Assembly: GCA_013044195.1 (NCBI GenBank)
Contig: JABEUV010000004.1
Coordinates: forward strand, 1-40,897
Direction of reading: 5' to 3'
Origin: Elusimicrobiota bacterium
Lineage (GTDB): Bacteria > Elusimicrobiota > Elusimicrobia > UBA1565 > UBA9628
DNA length: 40,897 nucleotides
Below, piece by piece: positions 3,201-13,253 of the stretch (positions within the stretch are counted from its first letter, which is position 1; each line of letters opens with the position of its first letter). The position numbers and the translations under genes were made by a program. The notes beneath the pieces were generated by a model. That model had not been told where the DNA came from. It ran no database searches and saw only the letters and a list, made by a program, of their open reading frames with translations.

Positions 3201-3394
3201 TGGCCGCCGTCTTGAACGGACCGCCCTCGCCCTTGCGCCTGGACGCCGTCGCCCTGGCCGCGATGACGCGTCCGGGATTCCTTCCCGCCTTGGACGCCGC
3301 GCTGGCTCGCCCAGATTTCGCCGCGACGGCCGACGAAACTCGTCTGCTGGGACCGCGGCAGGACGCGGACGCACCGGGCCTCTGGAAGCCCTGA
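221..3394 (+). CDS. Large exported protein with HExxH zinc-peptidase motif and helical-repeat C-terminus
   Basis: This is a 1057-residue protein whose exact family I do not recognise. Residues 1-37 form a signal peptide (basic n-region, hydrophobic core around 18-29, cleavage near ALA-AA). About 160 residues rich in Ala, Pro and Val follow, a likely unstructured linker. At 487-491 there is HELNH, and 43 residues later an NELNSWR segment (Glu534) that could supply the third zinc ligand, as in gluzincins. The region before the motif (205-480) is predicted globular. After a second Ala/Pro linker near 685-705, the last 350 residues look alpha-helical and HEAT-like. The inferred role is a periplasmic or surface-bound metallopeptidase-like protein; activity is not proven. 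The ATG at 221 is chosen because it gives an intact signal peptide. A strong hairpin starts at the stop codon. The leader style matches the N-terminus of the giant fusion at 7645-12573. Confidence 0.8.
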   Translation: MRSSRTVGSPKTNVFPRALALCLSVLTVAPQSPALAAAVEFSRPFEPIAAPVFAPVALPTVPLAGMRTSLGVLAAPALEVGASPAALAPAAAPAAAAPATLPAQGAPASAAAPAEPAAAPLPGRAVAPKASDVPEASSLGTLAQPHADAAAGRRIFDNQRLDGDDAAVPSPTPSAAASVAPLAAAAPASAPTPAAPPARTAIASRIVVGPGTFQLKDFIDITDPALRARIQKAQAAKDIAKINLLIAAFTPLAPINAEMVYEARFMGPNAPTLTPAQRKAQVDAFVQALPQLLKDRVTETLRKNGAVAETVDGDITVYTVPDGVKFWLDLVNSPNPDERMAGLVFLAETKNSPLPDQGARIARGLNPGFDLKSQLLDARRFSTEDLAALGETARANGLQAARHGPYVLVGGGISFFVANAIFDAADALKDPTLAARFARVTRFVAAESIPIAYSPMPGAVAFYNPQSDEMNYVLPASSSASLNATAHELNHARFKRFLDDLKKWLAYHNFAIPFEIDGPSPFGPFGAFMTLLNELNSWRIGQSFDGGMKDKDILKVLLQSYGGEAGWDNVQRFAQVWTVSAIRGKSVPKLILERIRALNALDAAQLRQLGADAVARKDMFAAQNFLRLVRARYPKADAVPVDLAALVAQMKSFPDAGVVQLAQAVLPDPAPAAPVAAPAAPAAPSQAKAAFDADAVLKQLSQDSFLGMSDPAKVRTAKEYLLWLIAKRALSLDDPATPGRQAQALKLLSDLFDRWGFATLYGERALVSLNSMQQSMDKANGRPPSPEMRNRAVQKDHIFFSPWLVGMIAEKIFDGRPGNHRAGFLELLRSRVYPEEMVSLVKALAYFLTKDVRTQPTLNELMVARMFLSEPALEIFPTQRAWGDVAADAMRQDPAQFPGMLESLAEYYRIGLGAALPGEEWGRYTSVKLDAAQRTQVLAALGETAQRPEDWSRYEKARDALWAMLADKSPLARTAARYALAGHPPYLIGLENQLAAVLNGPPSPLRLDAVALAAMTRPGFLPALDAALARPDFAATADETRLLGPRQDADAPGLWKP

Positions 3395-3419
3395 CGCAAT
3401 CCCCACGCGGGGATTGCGT
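3394..3419 (+). terminator. Perfect 11-bp stem-loop between the 221 gene and the CYTH gene
   Basis: ACGCAATCCCC (3394-3404) pairs perfectly with GGGGATTGCGT (3409-3419) around the loop ACGC. No T-run follows. Its 3' edge overlaps TAGAAT (3419-3424), the likely -10 box of the next gene, so the hairpin is either an imperfect terminator or a structure at the promoter. Confidence 0.5.
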
Positions 3420-3430
3420 AGAATAACCGC

Positions 3431-3952
3431 GTGGGCCTCGAGATCGAACGCAAGTTCCTGGTGACCGGCGACGGCTGGCGCGGCCGCGGACGCTCCTCGC
3501 GCCTGAGCCAGGGCTATCTATGCGCGTCCAAGGAACGCAGCGTGCGCGTGCGCCTGGACGGCCGCTCCGGAACCTTGACCATCAAGGGCCCGACGCGCGG
3601 CGCGGTCCGCGCCGAGTTCGAATATCCCATCCCCGCGCGCGACGCCGCGGCCCTGCTGGCGTTGTGCGAAGGCTCCCTGATCGACAAGACGCGCACGCGC
3701 GTGCGCTTCGGCGGCCTGCTGTGGGAAATCGACGAGTTCCACGGCGACAATCAAGGTCTGATCGTCGCCGAAGTGGAACTCTCCCGCGCGCGCCAGCGCG
3801 TCGTCCTTCCCCCGTGGGTCGGAGCGGAGGTGACGGGCGACGCGCGCTACCTTAATGCGTCGCTCTACCGCCGTCCCTACCGCGCGTGGCGCGCGCGAAA
3901 GTCCGCTACTACCAGGAAAAGCCGATTCCGCCGACGATCGCGTTCGAGCTGA
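3431..3952 (+). CDS. CYTH-domain triphosphate-binding protein (inorganic triphosphatase / class IV adenylate cyclase family)
   Basis: The N-terminus carries the signature EIERKFLV (residues 4-11). Alternating charged strands follow (RVRLDG, LTIKGP, AEFEYPI, DKTRTRVRF, WEIDEFHGDN, AEVEL), the acidic and basic residues that line the CYTH tunnel barrel. In bacteria most such proteins hydrolyse tripolyphosphate or other triphosphates with a divalent metal, and some are CyaB-like cyclases; the sequence alone does not decide. The GTG start is the only one that keeps EIERK near the N-terminus. TAGAAT ends 6 nt before it, so the mRNA may be leaderless. The expected domain ends near residue 152. The last 20 or so residues are very basic and lie over the 3' end of the convergent barrel gene (44-bp overlap), so the tail may be non-functional read-through. 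Confidence 0.85.
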   Translation: MGLEIERKFLVTGDGWRGRGRSSRLSQGYLCASKERSVRVRLDGRSGTLTIKGPTRGAVRAEFEYPIPARDAAALLALCEGSLIDKTRTRVRFGGLLWEIDEFHGDNQGLIVAEVELSRARQRVVLPPWVGAEVTGDARYLNASLYRRPYRAWRARKSATTRKSRFRRRSRSS

Positions 3953-4625
3953 GGCTGTTGATCACCAACGTGCCGTTGGTGACGCCGGTCCCGGTGTTGT
4001 TGATCACGCTATCCTTGACCGCAATCGGCATGAAGATGCCGCTGAAGCGATCTTCCAGGAACAGGTTGAAGTGCTCGGTCAGGAGCCAGCGGCCGCCGAA
4101 AAACAGATCGTAACCGACGGTCGCGGACGTGCCGACCGAGGGCCCCATCGTGTTCTGCGAGGCGCTGTAAGCCTGGTAGTTGTAGAACATGATCGGGATG
4201 TTGAGGCCCGCGCCGCCGTACAGACGAATGAAGCGCAGCGGTACTCCCAAAATCACGTCGCCTCCGGGCTGCAAGACCGTGCCGCCCGGGAAGGAGCGGA
4301 TCGGACTGTTGTCTGCGAAATACATCTGTTCCTTGACGCCGTAAGCCTGTAGGTTGAAGGCGGCGCCGTAGGAGAAGTGATCCGTCTTCGTCAGGCTGCC
4401 GATGCGGATGCCGCCGGTCGCTCCCGAAAGCTGATGCACGTTCGTGAGCTCGGTCCACTGAAGACCGCCGGGAGAACAGCCGCCGCCGTTGCAGTAATCC
4501 GTGTTCTGCAGGATCGACGTCGGCAGGAAGTTGATGCCGCCGCCGTAGATGTCCAGGATGCCCTCGGCCGAGGCCGGAACCGCCGCCGCGGCCGCAAGCA
4601 GTACGATCGCCACCATTCTTTTCAT
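3909..4625 (-). CDS. Predicted outer-membrane beta-barrel protein
   Basis: This is a 238-residue protein with a clear signal peptide (MKRMVAIVLLAAAAAVPASA, cleaved before EG). The mature part has alternating hydrophobic/polar, Gly- and aromatic-rich strands (IYGGGINFL, GGIRIGSL, FSYGAAFNLQAYGV, RLYGGAGLNI, GYDLFFGGRWLL, FNLFLEDRFSG, NAIVGGIGFSW). The C-terminal residue is aromatic (W), as in outer-membrane barrels inserted by BamA. The size suits an 8-stranded, OmpA/OmpW-like barrel. A CxxxxxC pair in the first extracellular-looking loop (DYCNGGGCS) may form a disulfide. It is transcribed alone from its own promoter, divergent from the HEAT-like gene and convergent with CYTH. Specific function is unknown. 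Confidence 0.75.
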   Translation of the reverse strand: MKRMVAIVLLAAAAAVPASAEGILDIYGGGINFLPTSILQNTDYCNGGGCSPGGLQWTELTNVHQLSGATGGIRIGSLTKTDHFSYGAAFNLQAYGVKEQMYFADNSPIRSFPGGTVLQPGGDVILGVPLRFIRLYGGAGLNIPIMFYNYQAYSASQNTMGPSVGTSATVGYDLFFGGRWLLTEHFNLFLEDRFSGIFMPIAVKDSVINNTGTGVTNGTLVINSLSSNAIVGGIGFSW

Positions 4626-6000: not shown

Positions 6001-7602
6001 TCAGCCGCGCAGCGCCGCGACGAACTCGTCGGCCGGCGCCACGCGCGAGAAGCCCTGCGCCAGGCTGCGCAGCGCGCCCAGATGGAGCGCCTCGTCGTGC
6101 GCGACGGTCGCGTCGGCGGCCACGAAGGTGCGAAAGCCGCGGTCGAAGGCGGAGCGCGCCGTGGATTCGACGCACAGGTTCGTGGCCAGGCCGCACAGCA
6201 CCAAATCCTCCACGCCGGCCGCGCGCAGGCACGCCGCCAAGCGCGGGTTGGAGAACGCGCTGTAGCGGGTCTTGCGCACGACCGTCTCGCCCGGCCGCGG
6301 CGCAAGCGCCTCGGCCACGCGGGACTCCGGGCGGCCGTCGCGGCAGACCTTCGCCCACCAGCCCGCCATCAGGCCCCCGTCGCGCGCCGGGTCGCGGTGC
6401 GCGTGGCGCACGAACAGCACCGGCCGACCGGCCGCGCGAAAAGCGTGAAGCAGGCGCACGGCCCCGGCCACGGCGGCGCGCGACTGCGGCAGATACGCGG
6501 GAGAATTGCGGTCGACGAAATAATCCAGAAGATCGACGACGAGCAGTCCCGCCTTGCCCGGGCGCAGCGGCTCGCCGCGCGTCTTGAAGCGAGAAATATC
6601 CGCCATCCAGCGCCGCGACATTTCCGGCATCGTGTCGGGGGAGACGTAGCACTCGCGTTCCAGGCGCTCCGCGCGCAGGCCGGCGCGGGCCTCGTCGCGC
6701 AGGACGTCCGACCACACCTGGCCGCACAACGTCGCCGCCGTACCTTCCTCAACAGAACTGGGAGACAGGATCACGGTAAATCCGCGCGCGCGCAGGTCCG
6801 CGGCCGCCGCCGCGATATCGGCCGGAGGCCGGCGCCACGACCGCGCGCTGGCGCTCGCCTCGGCGGCGCGCGTGGCATCGACGGCCGCGATCTTGATCAA
6901 GAAACGCTCCGCATCGAACGTCCGCGCCACCGCCTCGGCGTCAAGCGGCTGGTCGCAAGACAGCGCGAAGTTCAGCGTCACCTTGCGGTCGCCCGGCCGC
7001 CACCAGCGCCGCCCGAAGTCGGCCACGCGTTCCAGCGACCACGGCCGCGCGCGCATGACGCGCCGCCGCGCGGCCTCGTCGGTGGAATGCACGGAGAACT
7101 GCAGCTGGAAGCGCCCGCCGCCGTAGAGGCGGTCCTTGACTACGCGCATCTCCTCCAGGCACGCCGCGGCCGTCGGCGTGTCGGGAGCCACCGTGGAGAC
7201 CGCGGGCAGCAGGCCCGGCCCGCCCCACTCGGCGGCCAGACGCTCCAGCGCCCGCGGCGTCGCGTCATTGAGCGTCGGCTCTCCCATCCGCGCGAAGTGA
7301 ACCTTGAACTTCGGATGGCGGCGCGCGTCCAGCGCCGGGTTGTCGCGGACCGCGCGGCGGACCTGTGCCACGATCTCGGCGGCCGTCAGGTTGCCGCGCC
7401 AGCCGACGATTCCGCCGTCGCACATGCGGCAGCCGATGACGCAGCCGACCTGGGTGGATATTCTCAGCACCCATTTGTCCGCCTTCGCAACGCCGGGCGC
7501 CGTCGTGTCCACGAACTCGATCAGGCGCTCCCGGGCTCCGGACACCCGTGCCAGGTACAGCCGCCCCAGCGCGCCGATATCGCGCGTCGCCACTACCTTC
7601 AT
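6001..7602 (-). CDS. Fusion: RlmN/Cfr-like radical SAM domain + isochorismatase-type hydrolase domain
   Basis: The protein is 533 residues counting from the ATG at 7602; a TTG at 7620 is possible, and neither has a Shine-Dalgarno. Residues 1-310 match the RlmN/Cfr rRNA or tRNA adenosine C2/C8 methyltransferase core. The 4Fe-4S motif STQVGCxxxCxxC lies at C54/C58/C61. ARMGEP corresponds to GMGEP, SVHSTDEAARRRVM to the SLHA..R..(I/M)MP region, and TLCGQV holds the equivalent of the methyl-carrying cysteine (C293). The RlmN resolving cysteine 7 residues before the first cluster cysteine is an Arg here, and the N-terminal accessory domain is short. Residues 350-533 are an isochorismatase-like cysteine hydrolase with a complete triad: D357 (LLVVDLLDYF), K444 (VVRKTRYSAF) and C477 (GLATNLCVEST). 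The gene follows the giant fusion by 42 bp on the same strand and is probably co-transcribed. Neither substrate is known. Confidence 0.8.
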   Translation of the reverse strand: MKVVATRDIGALGRLYLARVSGARERLIEFVDTTAPGVAKADKWVLRISTQVGCVIGCRMCDGGIVGWRGNLTAAEIVAQVRRAVRDNPALDARRHPKFKVHFARMGEPTLNDATPRALERLAAEWGGPGLLPAVSTVAPDTPTAAACLEEMRVVKDRLYGGGRFQLQFSVHSTDEAARRRVMRARPWSLERVADFGRRWWRPGDRKVTLNFALSCDQPLDAEAVARTFDAERFLIKIAAVDATRAAEASASARSWRRPPADIAAAAADLRARGFTVILSPSSVEEGTAATLCGQVWSDVLRDEARAGLRAERLERECYVSPDTMPEMSRRWMADISRFKTRGEPLRPGKAGLLVVDLLDYFVDRNSPAYLPQSRAAVAGAVRLLHAFRAAGRPVLFVRHAHRDPARDGGLMAGWWAKVCRDGRPESRVAEALAPRPGETVVRKTRYSAFSNPRLAACLRAAGVEDLVLCGLATNLCVESTARSAFDRGFRTFVAADATVAHDEALHLGALRSLAQGFSRVAPADEFVAALRG

Positions 7603-7644
7603 GGACGAGTGGGAAAGCAACGCAACGGCCGCGTGGAGGAGCGC

Positions 7645-10600
7645 CTAGCGGCCGGAGGCCTGGATCGCGGCGGCCAGGCGGGCGAAGAGTTCCTGCGTGG
7701 CGTCCTGGTTGCGGACCGAGGACTGCACCACGTTGGGCTGGGTCTTGTCCCAGCTCTTGCCGACGGAGACCGCCAGCGCGCCGGGCAGGGCCTGCGCCAT
7801 GAACAGGTCGTTGCCCTCGGGCTTGAAGTCGTCGCCGAAGATCAGCACCTGGCTCTCGTCCTGCACCACGCCGCGCGCCTTCAGGATTTCGAACGCCTTC
7901 TTAGCACCAGTGCCCTTGTTCGCCTTGAAGTATTGGACGTAGGGAACCTTGTTCTCGCGCATGGTCGGGTAGGGCTTGAGCTGGACCAGGTAGCCGAAGC
8001 CGTCGCGCGCGTTGATCTGAGCGACGGCGTCGTAGAGCTCTTTCTCGCGCTCAATATGGTTGCGCAGTTCGATCAGCGAGCGGCTGTCCTCTTGGTAGAT
8101 CTTGTAGTCGCCGGGCGCCAGACCGATGGAGCGCGCGGCTTCCTCGAAGGCGGGCACGATTTTCTCATTCTCGGCCTCGGTGAAGCCGACTTCCTTCCAG
8201 GTCGGCGACTCGCGCGTCGGCGAGACGCCGGCGCCGTCATATTCATAGATGCGCGCGCCGGACTGGACCACATACATCATGTCCGCGCGCGTCCGGGGCG
8301 TCAGGCGGTCGCCCAAAAGGTTCGTCATGCCGTTGTGGTCGCCGGTGAAGAAGTGATTGGTCGAGATCACCACGCGCACGCCGGCGTCGTGCAGGGCCTG
8401 GATCAAGGCCGCCAGCCGCTCGCTGGCGACCACGGCCTTGTCGTCCGCATTCTTGTTCATCAAGGTGCCGTCGTAGTCCGTGATGACGACCTTGACGCCC
8501 TTCGCGGCCACGCGCGCGGCGATGCGCGCGGAAATCTGGTCCAGGGTCTCCGGCTGCGTCGCGGGCGCCGCCGACGCGTCCGTCTTGAACAAAGTCGGGG
8601 CCAAGCGCGCGCCCAGCTTGCGCGGCGCGGCCCACAGCAAAGCGCCGACCACCAAGAACATCCCCACCATCGGCCACAGCGCCGTGGGGAAGGCCGGATG
8701 GAACGCGCCGGCCAGCGCGCCGAAAGCCGCGTAGCCGAACGCGGCGGCGATGGAGCTCAGCGCGGAGCGCGCGCCCAGAATCTTGCCCGTGTGCGCCGCG
8801 TCGGCGCGGGCCTCGCCCTGCATGATGGTGTCGATGGCGATCTTGTTGGGCACGCTGACCAAGCCCACCAAGGCCAGGCTCAGCAGGAAGGCCGGCACGC
8901 TGCCCCAGAACGCCAGCGGCAATCCCAGCGCGGCCAGGCCCACGAAGGCGAAGCGCATCCAGCCGCGATCGGTGAGCTTGCGCGCGGCCGCGTCGAAGGC
9001 GAGTGCTACCGCCGTGCCCGCCGCCGCCGCGATCAGGTTATGAGGGAACAGCGAGAACGCCAGCCACGCGCCGAGCGTACCCAATGTGCCCGCGCGCACC
9101 GCCGTGTTCCAGCGTCCCGGCAGGCGGAGCAGAGACGAGGTCGCCAGCATCTGGCCGAAGAACAGCGCGCCCTGCAGGCGGCCCTGCAGAAGTCCGCCGC
9201 CGTTCAAATCGCGCGAGGCGAAGGGCACCAAAATGGACTGGACCGGGAAGACCACCAGCGCATACAGCGACCCCAGCACCGCGCCGGAGCGCAGCACCGA
9301 GCTTTTCCAGATGCGCTTGAGCCCCTCGGAGGTGGCGGCCAGACCCAGCAGCGACGCGCCGACCAGCGGCAAGGTCGCGAACTGCGGCGCGACGGAGTGC
9401 AGCACCGCGTAGAGCGCGGCACCCGCGCCCAGCAGACCGCCCCAGATCAGCGCGTCGCGACCGCGACCGGACGCCTGCGGCGCGGCCTCGGCCGAGGGGG
9501 CCGCGACGGCCGGACCGGCGACGCGCACGTTGGGAAGCGTGAACCACTGCACGGCCAGGCCCGCCGCGGCCAGTGCCGCGTTGACCGCGAACACGGCCGA
9601 CAGCCCCGGCAAAAGTCCCAGGTGCGCCGTCAGGCCGTCGATCCAGCTCCCCGCGGACAGGAACAGACCCAGCGCCACGTTGAGGCCGATGAAATTCAGG
9701 TTCGCCGCCGCGTTGAGCGCGGACAGGCGCTTGGCGTCGCCGCCCGCCAGCGCCGGCAGGATCTTGTCCTCGGCGATAAGAGAACTGGACACGTTCCAGC
9801 TGGTGACCAGCGCCACGGCCAGCAAAGGCCAGAAGCCGGCCGTGCCCGTGGCCACCAGCGCGGGCAGGGCCAGCGCCGTGATTAGGCGCACCACGTTATT
9901 GATCGCGAAGGAGTTTCTCTGGCTGAAGCGCTGGGCGATCACGCCGCTAACCGAGGAGAGCAGGATGCCGGCCAGCGCGCCCAAGGACATCAGGTCCGCG
10001 TAGCCTTGATGGCCGACCAAGGCCTGCGCGAAGATCGGATAAGCGATGGTGCCCGCCAGCACGTAGCCGGCCAGATACAGCGTGCGTCCCGCCAGCCAGC
10101 CGATCGTCGCGCGGCGGCGCGCCGCGGCGTCCAGACCCGCGACCTCGGGGCCGGCGGCGGCGGCGTTCAGGTCGGAGAGGCGGGTCGCGCCTTTGAGCAG
10201 CGCGCGGAACAGGCTCCACTGCGCACGCTCCCCGCGCGTCGGCGCGTCCGGGCGGGAGCGGTCGGCGTAGCGGTCCGGCGGAGGGCTAAGCGCGCGCTCC
10301 AGGCGGTCCTCGCCGGCCAGCACCAGGAACGGGTCGTGGTGGATCTTCAGCAGGAAAGAAGCCGAAGGGTAAAACGCGAACTCGGCGGCGTTGAGCGGGT
10401 GCGCGCGGGACTGCGGATCGGCGCTCCAGGATTTCTCCAGGCGCGCCAGGAACGCCGGCACGCGGCGCGAGCGCCCGTCGGCCGTCAGCACGTGCAGGTC
10501 GAAATCGCTCTTGGCCGTGGCCGCGCCGATGGCGAAGCTGCCCAGCACCACCACGCCCACCACGCGGTCGGGCGCGGCCGCGTCCTCGCCGCGCAGGGCG

Positions 10601-12573
10601 TCGCGCACGGCGGCGCGGAACGCCGCGATGGACGCCGCCTGCTCCTCGTGCTGGTAGGTCTCGGCCGAATCGTTGACGACGGGCAGCATCAAGCCCGCGA
10701 AGTAGCCCGCCAGCGCCTCGGCGGGCATCAGCGAGGCCGCGTGCAGGGCCTTGCGGATGTGCTTGCGCAGGTTGCTGTGGCTGCGCTTGGGGTTGTAGAG
10801 CTTGGCGCGCTCCAAGAATTCCGCGAAGGCCGCGCGCGCCGCGTCCCCCGTGCCGGAGAAGTACAGATCGTAAAGGCGCAGAGCCTCGCGGGTCACGTAG
10901 GCGTCGGAGCCTGAGCGCGAGCCCACGGTCTTCGTCCCGCCGATCATCCCCATCAGGCGCGTGTCCACGAAGAAGCCGCGCTCGTCCTTCACCAGGAGTT
11001 CCGGACGCTGCGCGCGCGCCGCCGCGCGGGCCGCGCGGTACTCGCGCCAATTCTCCACGTTGACGTCGAAGAAATAGTGCCGGCACGACTTCACCCAGAG
11101 CGTCGCCCAGCCCAGGAACTCGCGCACGCCGCGCCAGAAGCCGGAGGCCTCCCCGGCCATGCGCGAAGCCACCGACAGCAGAACGCGGCGCGAGGCGGCG
11201 GGGCCGCTTTCGCCCAGAACGAACAGGTTGGCGCGGCGCGCGTCGCCCGTGCCGCCCACCGACAAGGTCAGCGCGCCGGGCAGGGCCTTCTGCATCTCCG
11301 CGTCGCTGGCGTTGCCAAAAGCGGGAAGCGTGCGGCCGCTGACGTTGCGGGCCAGACGGGCCAGGCCGCCGAAGCGCGCGCCTTCGCGCGGGGCATACAT
11401 GCCGTCGCCCAGCGTCACCACGTCGCGCGCCGTCAGCCCGCGCTCCTGGGCGATAAAGCGCGCCGCACTCGCCTTCGTATTGACGGTCAGCGTGACGTAA
11501 GGAGGGTTGGCGGGATCCTTGGCGAAGCGCGCCTTGACCGTCAGGCCCGCGCCGCGCCGGTCCAGCTCAACCTGGAGCAGCGACGCCGCCCCGCGCAGTT
11601 GGTCCGGCGTGGAACCGACCTGCAGGCGCAAGGTGTAGGTGTAAGGACCCCACGCGTCCGCGCCCACGTCGCCCGCCAAAGAGGAGAATGCCCGCGCGCC
11701 GACTTCCGGAAAGCGCGCCCGCGCCGCGTCGGCGGCCGCGCCGACCACGGCCTTGACCGCGTCGGACATGGGCGGTTCCTGATGGACCAGCGCCGCCGCT
11801 TGGCCCGCGTCGTCGTAGCGGTAGACCCGGCCGCCCGCGTCCACGGCCACATACATCCCCGCCCGCGCGGCGGGCGGCAAGGTCGACAAAGCGTCCAGCA
11901 CGCTCTCCGGGCGGTCGCTGATCACGTCCACGGTCTTGCCCGCGGCGCGCACCGCTTCGACGGCTTCCACCATGTCCGGCGGCAGGCGGTGATCGAAGGC
12001 GGCGTTGGACTGGGCCAGGGTCTCGTCGAAATCGGACAGCACCGCGCGGCGGTCGGCCGCGGCGGCGATGAGGCGGTCGCTCAGCGCCGGACCGGCCGGG
12101 CGCAGGCTGAAGACGGTCCCGGTCAGGACCGCCGCGACTTTCAGCAGGAGCGCGTGGGCTTTATACGCCGCGAGAGATTGGATCGGCGCCGCGGCGTCGA
12201 CGGACGGCGCGGCCGGTGCGGCGGCCGGCGCGGCCGCGGCGGACGGGCGCGCGTCGTGGCCGGATTCGGCGGGGGCCGCCGCCGCCGGCAAGGCCGGTGC
12301 GGGAAAGGCGACCGCGGCCGAGACGGAAGGCGCCGCGGCGGCCGAAACGGAGAGCGACGGCGCGGCCAGGGGTGCCGCGACCGGCCCCAGCGCGGACGGC
12401 GACAACGCCAGGCCGGACGGGACGGTTCGAGGAACGCTCAAGACCGCCGTTTCGGCGACCGGAGCGCTCTCCAGAGCGGCGGCAAAAAGACGCGGCGCTT
12501 CCAGTCCCGGCGACAGCAGGATGAGAGCGAGGCAGAGTATCGAGGCGACCAGGCTTCGAGCTCGATCGATCAT
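7645..12573 (-). CDS. Giant exported/membrane fusion: HAD phosphatase - nucleotidyltransferase - MFS transporter - HAD phosphatase
   Basis: About 1642 residues. Positions below count from the ATG at 12582; the ATG three codons later (12573) is preferred because TACAAT overlaps the first ATG. The N-terminus is hydrophobic (12-25, signal peptide or anchor), followed by about 110 Ala/Pro/Val/Ser-rich residues. HAD domain 1 has DFDET (184-188) and LGDGMY (391-396), the C2-capped phosphatase pattern of the trehalose/sucrose-phosphate phosphatase type. A helical region follows. At 681-696 come GSFAIG and SDFDL, the minimal nucleotidyltransferase (Pol-beta) signature. Residues 829-1320 form 10 to 12 hydrophobic helices in two bundles, MFS-like. 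HAD domain 2 has DYDGT (1369-1373) and FGDDxxxEGND (1582-1592). Both HAD domains end in ALPGALxxSVG, so they look duplicated. A single open frame without frameshift supports one polypeptide. Role unknown; a sugar- or lipid-phosphate pathway is only a guess. Confidence 0.85.
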   Translation of the reverse strand: MIDRARSLVASILCLALILLSPGLEAPRLFAAALESAPVAETAVLSVPRTVPSGLALSPSALGPVAAPLAAPSLSVSAAAAPSVSAAVAFPAPALPAAAAPAESGHDARPSAAAAPAAAPAAPSVDAAAPIQSLAAYKAHALLLKVAAVLTGTVFSLRPAGPALSDRLIAAAADRRAVLSDFDETLAQSNAAFDHRLPPDMVEAVEAVRAAGKTVDVISDRPESVLDALSTLPPAARAGMYVAVDAGGRVYRYDDAGQAAALVHQEPPMSDAVKAVVGAAADAARARFPEVGARAFSSLAGDVGADAWGPYTYTLRLQVGSTPDQLRGAASLLQVELDRRGAGLTVKARFAKDPANPPYVTLTVNTKASAARFIAQERGLTARDVVTLGDGMYAPREGARFGGLARLARNVSGRTLPAFGNASDAEMQKALPGALTLSVGGTGDARRANLFVLGESGPAASRRVLLSVASRMAGEASGFWRGVREFLGWATLWVKSCRHYFFDVNVENWREYRAARAAARAQRPELLVKDERGFFVDTRLMGMIGGTKTVGSRSGSDAYVTREALRLYDLYFSGTGDAARAAFAEFLERAKLYNPKRSHSNLRKHIRKALHAASLMPAEALAGYFAGLMLPVVNDSAETYQHEEQAASIAAFRAAVRDALRGEDAAAPDRVVGVVVLGSFAIGAATAKSDFDLHVLTADGRSRRVPAFLARLEKSWSADPQSRAHPLNAAEFAFYPSASFLLKIHHDPFLVLAGEDRLERALSPPPDRYADRSRPDAPTRGERAQWSLFRALLKGATRLSDLNAAAAGPEVAGLDAAARRRATIGWLAGRTLYLAGYVLAGTIAYPIFAQALVGHQGYADLMSLGALAGILLSSVSGVIAQRFSQRNSFAINNVVRLITALALPALVATGTAGFWPLLAVALVTSWNVSSSLIAEDKILPALAGGDAKRLSALNAAANLNFIGLNVALGLFLSAGSWIDGLTAHLGLLPGLSAVFAVNAALAAAGLAVQWFTLPNVRVAGPAVAAPSAEAAPQASGRGRDALIWGGLLGAGAALYAVLHSVAPQFATLPLVGASLLGLAATSEGLKRIWKSSVLRSGAVLGSLYALVVFPVQSILVPFASRDLNGGGLLQGRLQGALFFGQMLATSSLLRLPGRWNTAVRAGTLGTLGAWLAFSLFPHNLIAAAAGTAVALAFDAAARKLTDRGWMRFAFVGLAALGLPLAFWGSVPAFLLSLALVGLVSVPNKIAIDTIMQGEARADAAHTGKILGARSALSSIAAAFGYAAFGALAGAFHPAFPTALWPMVGMFLVVGALLWAAPRKLGARLAPTLFKTDASAAPATQPETLDQISARIAARVAAKGVKVVITDYDGTLMNKNADDKAVVASERLAALIQALHDAGVRVVISTNHFFTGDHNGMTNLLGDRLTPRTRADMMYVVQSGARIYEYDGAGVSPTRESPTWKEVGFTEAENEKIVPAFEEAARSIGLAPGDYKIYQEDSRSLIELRNHIEREKELYDAVAQINARDGFGYLVQLKPYPTMRENKVPYVQYFKANKGTGAKKAFEILKARGVVQDESQVLIFGDDFKPEGNDLFMAQALPGALAVSVGKSWDKTQPNVVQSSVRNQDATQELFARLAAAIQASGR

Positions 12574-12589
12574 CACTTCCATTGTATCG
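12574..12589 (-). promoter_or_regulatory. -10 box for a leaderless start of the giant fusion gene
   Basis: On the minus strand TACAAT is followed by 7 nt (GGAAGTG) and then the ATG at 12573. The upstream alternative ATG at 12582 is formed by the last bases of the -10 box itself. A weak -35 (GTGGTG) lies 18 nt upstream. Confidence 0.4.
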
Positions 12590-12737: not shown

Positions 12738-13253
12738 GTGGACGCCCAGATCGACCGCCTGCTCGCCCTGCACGCCGACAAGGCGTATGCCGTGGCGTTG
12801 AGAATGACCGGCAACCCGGCCGACGCCGGCGACGTGGTCCAGGACGCGTTCTTGCGCGCGATGAGATACTTCAAAAGCTACGATCCGACGTTGCCTTTCG
12901 AGGCCTGGCTGAACGCCATCCTGCGCAACGTTTACTTGAGCGCCCTGCGCCGGGAATACTCGCGCCGCTCGGTGTCCTTGTCCAAGCGCGTCGACGAGGA
13001 TTCCGCCGCACTGGAAGACGCCCTGGCCGACGCCGAGCCCGGCCCCGAACGCTGGGCAGAGGCCCGCGACGCCTCCGAACGCGTGCAGGCGGCGCTCTCG
13101 CGCCTGTCGCCGTCCTCGCGCCTGGCCGTGGCACTGGTGGACTTGGAAGGCTCGCCGCGCGAAGAGGCCGCGGCGGCGCTGGGCTGTTCGCTGTCGGCGC
13201 TGGACGTGCGCCTGCACCGCGGGCGACAGAAGCTCAAGGAGTTCCTCTCATGA
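12738..13253 (+). CDS. ECF-type RNA polymerase sigma factor
   Basis: The protein has 171 residues, normal for the extracytoplasmic-function group. Region 2 is at about 14-78 (AYAVALRMTGNPADAGDVVQDAFLRAM, then FEAWLNAILRN, typical of the -10-binding and core-binding helices). Region 4 is at about 115-168 (LSRLSPSSRLAVALVDLEG, then AAAALGCSLSALDVRLHRGRQKL, a helix-turn-helix that reads the -35). Region 3 is missing, as expected. The start is a GTG. The stop overlaps the start of the anti-sigma gene by ATGA. Its target promoters are unknown, but the GGAACTT-N15-CGTAT promoters in this window have the general ECF form and are candidates. Confidence 0.92.
   Translation: MDAQIDRLLALHADKAYAVALRMTGNPADAGDVVQDAFLRAMRYFKSYDPTLPFEAWLNAILRNVYLSALRREYSRRSVSLSKRVDEDSAALEDALADAEPGPERWAEARDASERVQAALSRLSPSSRLAVALVDLEGSPREEAAAALGCSLSALDVRLHRGRQKLKEFLS

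Follow-up and report, generated by a model that had tools for sequence, protein, structure and literature searches.

In this Elusimicrobiota genome, one gene encodes a predicted protein of 1645 residues that combines two phosphatases with a nucleotidyltransferase and a membrane transporter, and the order of its parts is conserved within the genus. The domain families are known, while the conserved phosphatase-nucleotidyltransferase-transporter-phosphatase chain appears to be undescribed; nothing was found in the literature on this architecture.

The window, i.e. the whole stretch of DNA analysed (40,897 nucleotides), is contig C279 of a 3.36 Mb genome (G000) made up of 299 contigs and 92% complete. 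The gene occupies positions 7645-12582 of the minus strand, where 1645 codons follow one another with no stop interrupting the frame. The first-pass annotation had described one uninterrupted frame of about 1640 codons, which is borne out; the end it gave at 12573 is an internal ATG (residue 4), the next in-frame start after the ATG at 12582. Both starts were inspected and a convincing ribosome site was found at neither. From the N- to the C-terminus, the protein displays an export-like leader, an Ala/Pro-rich linker, a first HAD phosphatase domain (HAD1), a Pol-beta-type nucleotidyltransferase (NT), an MFS transporter and a second HAD phosphatase domain (HAD2), located as follows.

7645..12582, minus strand: whole fusion ORF with all four parts, 1645 aa; start codon ATG at 12582, second possible start in frame at 12573
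12478..12582, minus strand: residues 1-35, leader; basic N-terminus, core of hydrophobic residues, LLSPGLEAPRLFAA with AxA-type site
12178..12477, minus strand: Ala/Pro-rich linker, residues 36-135; 53-residue run without charge
11155..12177, minus strand: HAD1 phosphatase domain, residues 136-476; profile matches and invariant motifs
12019..12033, minus strand: HAD1 motif I DFDET, residues 184-188, read from the sequence; D/D/T invariant in the family
10213..11085, minus strand: residues 500-790 (approximate limits), NT module; nucleotidyltransferase core with a helical N-part
10498..10542, minus strand: NT signature GSFAIGAATAKSDFD, residues 681-695, read from the sequence; GS and DxD invariant in nine members
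8623..10107, minus strand: MFS transporter, about residues 826-1320; HMM match, helix and charge pattern
7663..8535, minus strand: HAD2 phosphatase domain, about residues 1350-1640; DYDGT (1369-1373) and GDDFKPEGND (1583-1592)

Domain assignments

HAD2 is the clearest of the domains. It is matched by the HAD-IIB model TIGR01484 (2.7e-9 at residues 1366-1504), by the T6PP-like PRK14501 (3.7e-7) and, just above threshold, by Hydrolase_3 (21.2 bits, cut-off 20.9). The structure model carrying it, computed from an input alignment of three sequences, is confident over HAD2 only; there the predicted fold resembles PDB structures of trehalose-6-phosphate phosphatases and of an IMP-nucleotidase (E 3.4e-7 to 3.8e-5), and Foldseek retrieves T6PP at 5.7e-7. 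Both the motifs and the Rossmannoid fold of the HAD superfamily are present. Assignment as a trehalose-6-phosphate phosphatase was nevertheless rejected on the basis of curated scores, which reach 15.8 for TIGR00685 (cut-off 68.05) in the window protein and 12.8 for Trehalose_PPase (cut-off 27) in the orthologue L006.

Taken by itself, HAD1 is only weakly matched (YqeG, 2e-5). Residues D184, D186, T188, K370, GD392-393 and D427 are invariant among nine family members and motif II is S or T across the family alignment, so that the HAD superfamily hallmarks (DxDxT, motif II S/T, motif III K and motif IV acid) are all found. Hydrolase_3 is matched by five of the nine HAD1 homologues, and BT4131, a sugar phosphatase, is retrieved with the family profile (8.8e-5).

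The NT domain is likewise weak when taken singly (NTP_transf_2, 0.0022). This profile is however matched by all nine NT family members (best 2e-6), Polbeta being matched too, and the window domain scanned alone scores 21.6 for a cut-off of 21. Across the same nine members GS 681-682, D693 and D695 are invariant (GS...SD.D), and the domain thus combines a profile match with the G[GS]x(9-13)Dx[DE] pattern of the Pol-beta superfamily. The candidate position for the third catalytic carboxylate is acidic in some family members only. Activity is therefore uncertain, and the domain may be inactive or regulatory. An identification as class I adenylate cyclase was also considered: Adenyl_cycl_N is matched by five of the nine members (best E 1.1e-3), and the proposal was discarded since the window protein scores 13.9 bits for a cut-off of 27.

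The transporter region matches TIGR00900 with an E-value of 4.5e-15, at a score of 55.9 for a cut-off of 319.6, and its relatives in L060 and G066 exceed the Pfam MFS_1 cut-off. Six helices are counted in its N-terminal half and more than six hydrophobic stretches in its C-terminal half. AlphaFold models built from the three-sequence alignment reach a mean pLDDT of 57 for NT, with no PDB match, and of about 35 for the MFS region; the low confidence presumably reflects a lack of alignment depth. Altogether, the two HAD assignments and that of the nucleotidyltransferase made by the first-pass annotation survive, as does, more tentatively, that of an MFS transporter.

Conservation and reshuffling of the modules

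The four-part order is intact in two further genomes and very probably in a third. The orthologue in G037 (L005, 798-5729) has 1643 aa in the full order at 92% identity. That of G039 (L006, 2-4702) has at least 1566 aa at 76% identity, its leader being cut by the contig edge. In G041 (L046), contig C349 ends after HAD1-NT-MFS (about 57-62% identity) and contig C175 starts with HAD2 at 64% identity; these two contigs, broken between MFS and HAD2, very probably hold one gene. All four genomes belong to one genus. Only fragments of HAD2 and HAD1 are found in G043. The dN/dS ratio ranges from 0.08 to 0.55 and is below 1 in all segments, the intact frame of G000, G037 and G039 being under purifying selection. 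Among the 147 sampled genomes of the class, the four-part order is absent outside this genus, and the earlier statement that no described protein has this order stands uncontradicted.

A 539-aa frame on the minus strand (6001-7620) combines an RlmN/Cfr-like radical SAM domain (RlmN, 3.3e-15) with an isochorismatase hydrolase (3.4e-44) and lies 24 bases downstream of the fusion gene. This neighbour is kept in L005 and replaced in L006, by eye, by an anaerobic ribonucleotide reductase-like gene; a functional link between the two genes was rejected on account of this replacement. On the other side, an ECF sigma factor gene (12738-13253, plus strand) is divergent from the fusion gene, the two therefore sharing an upstream region of about 155 bases.

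The modules also turn up elsewhere in the class, in other combinations. NT is present in 29 of the 147 class genomes, mostly in frames of 370-630 aa, and the first five stand-alone frames that were read have signal-like starts and linkers. Although NT is mostly a separate gene elsewhere, the frame is unbroken here and the fusion conserved, and the combination of separate homologues with a frame break, named by the first-pass annotation as one way of refuting the fusion, is not encountered. HAD1 is present in 40 of the 147 genomes. Many genomes of the order encode proteins with the arrangement leader-HAD1-MFS, about 1050-1380 aa in length (nine were read), and other HAD1 proteins have different C-terminal parts. 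Of the 56 genomes of the order, 27 contain HAD2-like domains, a count that includes weak matches, some of which are HAD1; elsewhere HAD2 stands alone behind a leader or follows a ClpB-type double-AAA+ ATPase. The latter arrangement of leader and linker, ATPase and HAD2 was observed in L039, L040 and L041 (the ATPase of L041 by eye), with a signal peptidase II domain (Peptidase_A8, 7.7e-8) between ATPase and HAD2 in L040. An independent NT-MFS fusion (L060, 1-3054, family f4) has both domains above the Pfam cut-offs. A 1176-aa frame (L050, 522-4049) ends with an NT domain after a long N-part. One further candidate, L004, proved to be a false antisense match.

Two frames, each on a single MAG contig, are of exceptional length. 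The whole 31,716-base contig G066:C42 (L063 and L064, family f5) is one frame of 10,571 codons that is closed at neither end and has 0 stops as compared with 240-534 in the other frames; it contains subtilase, M48, MscS, glycosyltransferase, HAD1, MFS, PD-(D/E)XK, NT and HAD2 domains. In G057 (C5:8767-62031, L073-L076), a frame of 17,755 codons with stops at both ends begins with a PG leader (TTPGLDFYQVFAQ), includes a HAD1 domain and resembles the G066 frame in pieces. Huge proteins have been reported to be enriched in some bacterial phyla, Elusimicrobiota among them (PMC11573180).

The trees indicate how the parts met. In the HAD1 tree, the four-part proteins group with two HAD1 proteins devoid of MFS, L002 and L043 (100/99), and the leader-HAD1-MFS proteins form a separate clade (100/99). 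The four-part MFS domains are also set apart from those of the leader-HAD1-MFS proteins (88/95), in a tree with long branches on two rows. Since both trees separate the two kinds of protein, HAD1 and MFS probably met independently at least twice. Repeated fusion usually marks parts working together, and the repeated joining supports a functional coupling in general, but not specifically the channelled import or export, activation and dephosphorylation of one metabolite suggested by the first-pass annotation. The coupling is dispensable in at least one case: in the window's own genome, L003 (601-3273), otherwise nearly identical to its sister L036 (1860-5579), a HAD1-MFS protein, has cleanly lost HAD1 in frame between linker and MFS (junction AAANP/EASLEL). 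The modules thus appear to be repeatedly joined and yet separable.

The same genome contains the HAD1 paralogue L002 (604-3024, minus strand), 57% identical, with two later hydrophobic segments; a subtilisin-like protease gene (3206-4474, plus strand, by eye) is divergent from it. A PepSY-like domain was seen by eye in L043 and in L002, for which Pfam gave no confirmation.

Leader and membrane orientation

The leaders of the fusion family have basic N-termini, a hydrophobic core and, at their end, SPase I-like AxA sites, and the export signal announced by the first-pass annotation is, judged by these sequence features, real. The residues PG follow the hydrophobic core in 13 of 17 module-protein leaders as compared with about 1 of 42 signal-like ORFs (Fisher 8e-9), a value to be read with caution, the 17 leaders being non-independent, the PG and single comparison cases having been counted by eye and the motif having been noticed before testing. 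The comparison set was drawn from a 400-kb sample of the same genus by a rough ORF-based detection of leaders. After rough collapse to families the enrichment amounts to 4e-4. The window protein and other module proteins have a PG-containing leader in common. In the distant orthologue, conservation is lowest in the linker (residues 36-135).

The orientation predicted for the transporter does not agree with such a leader. In the MFS N-terminal half of 12 family members, the N-side loops contain 137 K/R and the opposite side 8, a ratio inflated by the greater length of the N-side loops, and 3-5 K/R follow the last MFS helix in the members with full sequence there. According to the positive-inside rule, this pattern places both transporter ends, and hence HAD1, NT and HAD2, in the cytoplasm. 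Two ways of reconciling leader and orientation were tried and rejected. A second membrane helix in the linker is not borne out, since the hydropathy maximum of this segment varies inconsistently from -0.1 to 1.9 across members, and a helical hairpin of the leader and residues 142-160, which would return HAD1 to the cytoplasm, is contradicted by the amphipathic nature of this stretch in homologues. No consistent membrane helix was found between leader and HAD1 in the family members.

The signal-like leader is thus in conflict with the predicted cytoplasmic orientation of HAD1 and NT. The topological puzzle raised by the first-pass annotation is real and larger than was thought, as leaders of this type also stand in front of Clp ATPases, of MFS proteins and of the 17,755-codon frame. 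The conflict recurs with the Clp double-AAA+ ATPases, which require ATP. How a signal-peptide-like start can precede ATP-using, cytoplasm-facing domains is a testable question of topology.

Possible functions and relation to known systems

Our favored interpretation, to which we give an even chance, is that of a single membrane protein in which HAD1, HAD2 and NT would be tethered to the MFS carrier and face the cytoplasm. The conserved frame, the kept motifs, the recurrent joining of HAD1 and MFS and the charge pattern all argue for it. Both HADs, of the sugar-phosphatase type, would dephosphorylate a small sugar-phosphate-like metabolite beside the carrier, the carrier would move the dephosphorylated product by proton coupling, and NT would nucleotidylate either a metabolite of this pathway or one of its partner proteins. 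The SPase I-like AxA leaders, the loss of HAD1 in L003 and the non-conserved third NT carboxylate count against this arrangement.

Several other explanations were weighed. An assembly artefact joining separate genes has to be considered in a MAG of 299 contigs; with the same unbroken order found in the G037 and G039 orthologues (92% and 76% identity), it can practically be dismissed. The fusion could also be meaningless, in a lineage that readily fuses neighbouring or transposed genes, the domains acting independently as if they were separate. The occurrence of the modules singly or in many other combinations, the unbroken transporter frame of L003 after its loss of HAD1 and the general tendency to very long genes seen in the 10,571- and 17,755-codon frames (cf. 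PMC11573180) would agree with this explanation; it is nevertheless rather unlikely, as HAD1-MFS and NT-MFS were each joined more than once and the HAD1-NT-MFS order survives about 40% protein divergence.

Were the leader a working Sec signal, it would be cleaved, HAD1 and NT would be periplasmic and the MFS would be inverted or have an odd number of helices. The AxA-type sites, basic n-region and hydrophobic core found across the family, as well as the similar starts of stand-alone NT proteins, are what such a signal predicts, but the MFS N-terminal half and the residues that follow the last helix show a positive-inside pattern, and such leaders are found in front of NT and Clp AAA+ domains, which use NTPs, so that this is improbable. 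A polyprotein, split by proteases after synthesis into separate enzymes and a transporter, would account for the two related frames far longer than ordinary proteins, one of which has subtilase and M48 proteases beside HAD1, MFS, NT and HAD2, and for the low-complexity linker between leader and HAD1. The window protein however has no protease domain, the linker that leads to its HAD2 is short (about 30 residues) and no cleavage motif was identified, so that this explanation seems quite doubtful.

Beyond the tethered membrane protein favored here, a broader and distinctly tentative proposal is that of an undescribed class-wide system in which a distinctive leader would direct or anchor combinatorial cytoplasm-facing modules to the membrane, from separate genes to single chains exceeding 17,000 residues, with the window gene as an intermediate. 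Such a leader would comprise a hydrophobic core, PG, an AxA-type site and, in most cases, an Ala/Pro-rich linker, and the set of modules would include HAD phosphatases, NT, MFS, Clp ATPase and signal peptidase II. The repeated fusion of the parts offers a route to function for poorly understood transporters and phosphatases.

Compared with known systems, both HADs share the motifs of HAD-IIB sugar phosphatases of the Cof/T6PP/BT4131 type, with the HAD1 profile leading to BT4131 and the predicted HAD2 fold being that of the T6PP-type members. Unlike these enzymes, the two HADs are fused in one chain around NT and MFS, and their scores lie below the curated cut-offs of all named subfamilies except that of Pfam Hydrolase_3, barely passed by HAD2. 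NT has the GSx10DxD signature of Pol-beta nucleotidyltransferases (NTP_transf_2; MntA, aminoglycoside NTases; the class I adenylate cyclase N-domain) but differs from them by its own conserved helical N-part and non-conserved third carboxylate, and fits no named Pol-beta subfamily. The transporter resembles the MFS proteins of TIGR00900 (H+ antiporter, 2A0121) in its HMM match and in a basic loop 2-3 similar to motif A, and departs from them by the additional hydrophobic stretches of its C-terminal half and by the leader and enzyme domains joined to it. The leader-HAD1-MFS proteins of the same order have leader, linker, HAD1 and MFS arranged as in the window protein; they contain neither NT nor HAD2, and their HAD1 and MFS lineages differ from those of the window protein on the trees. 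Finally, with regard to the huge proteins of Elusimicrobiota and Omnitrophota (PMC11573180; PMC10066038), very long frames also exist in the present class and carry the modules described here, whereas the window protein, unlike those huge proteins, has only 1645 aa.
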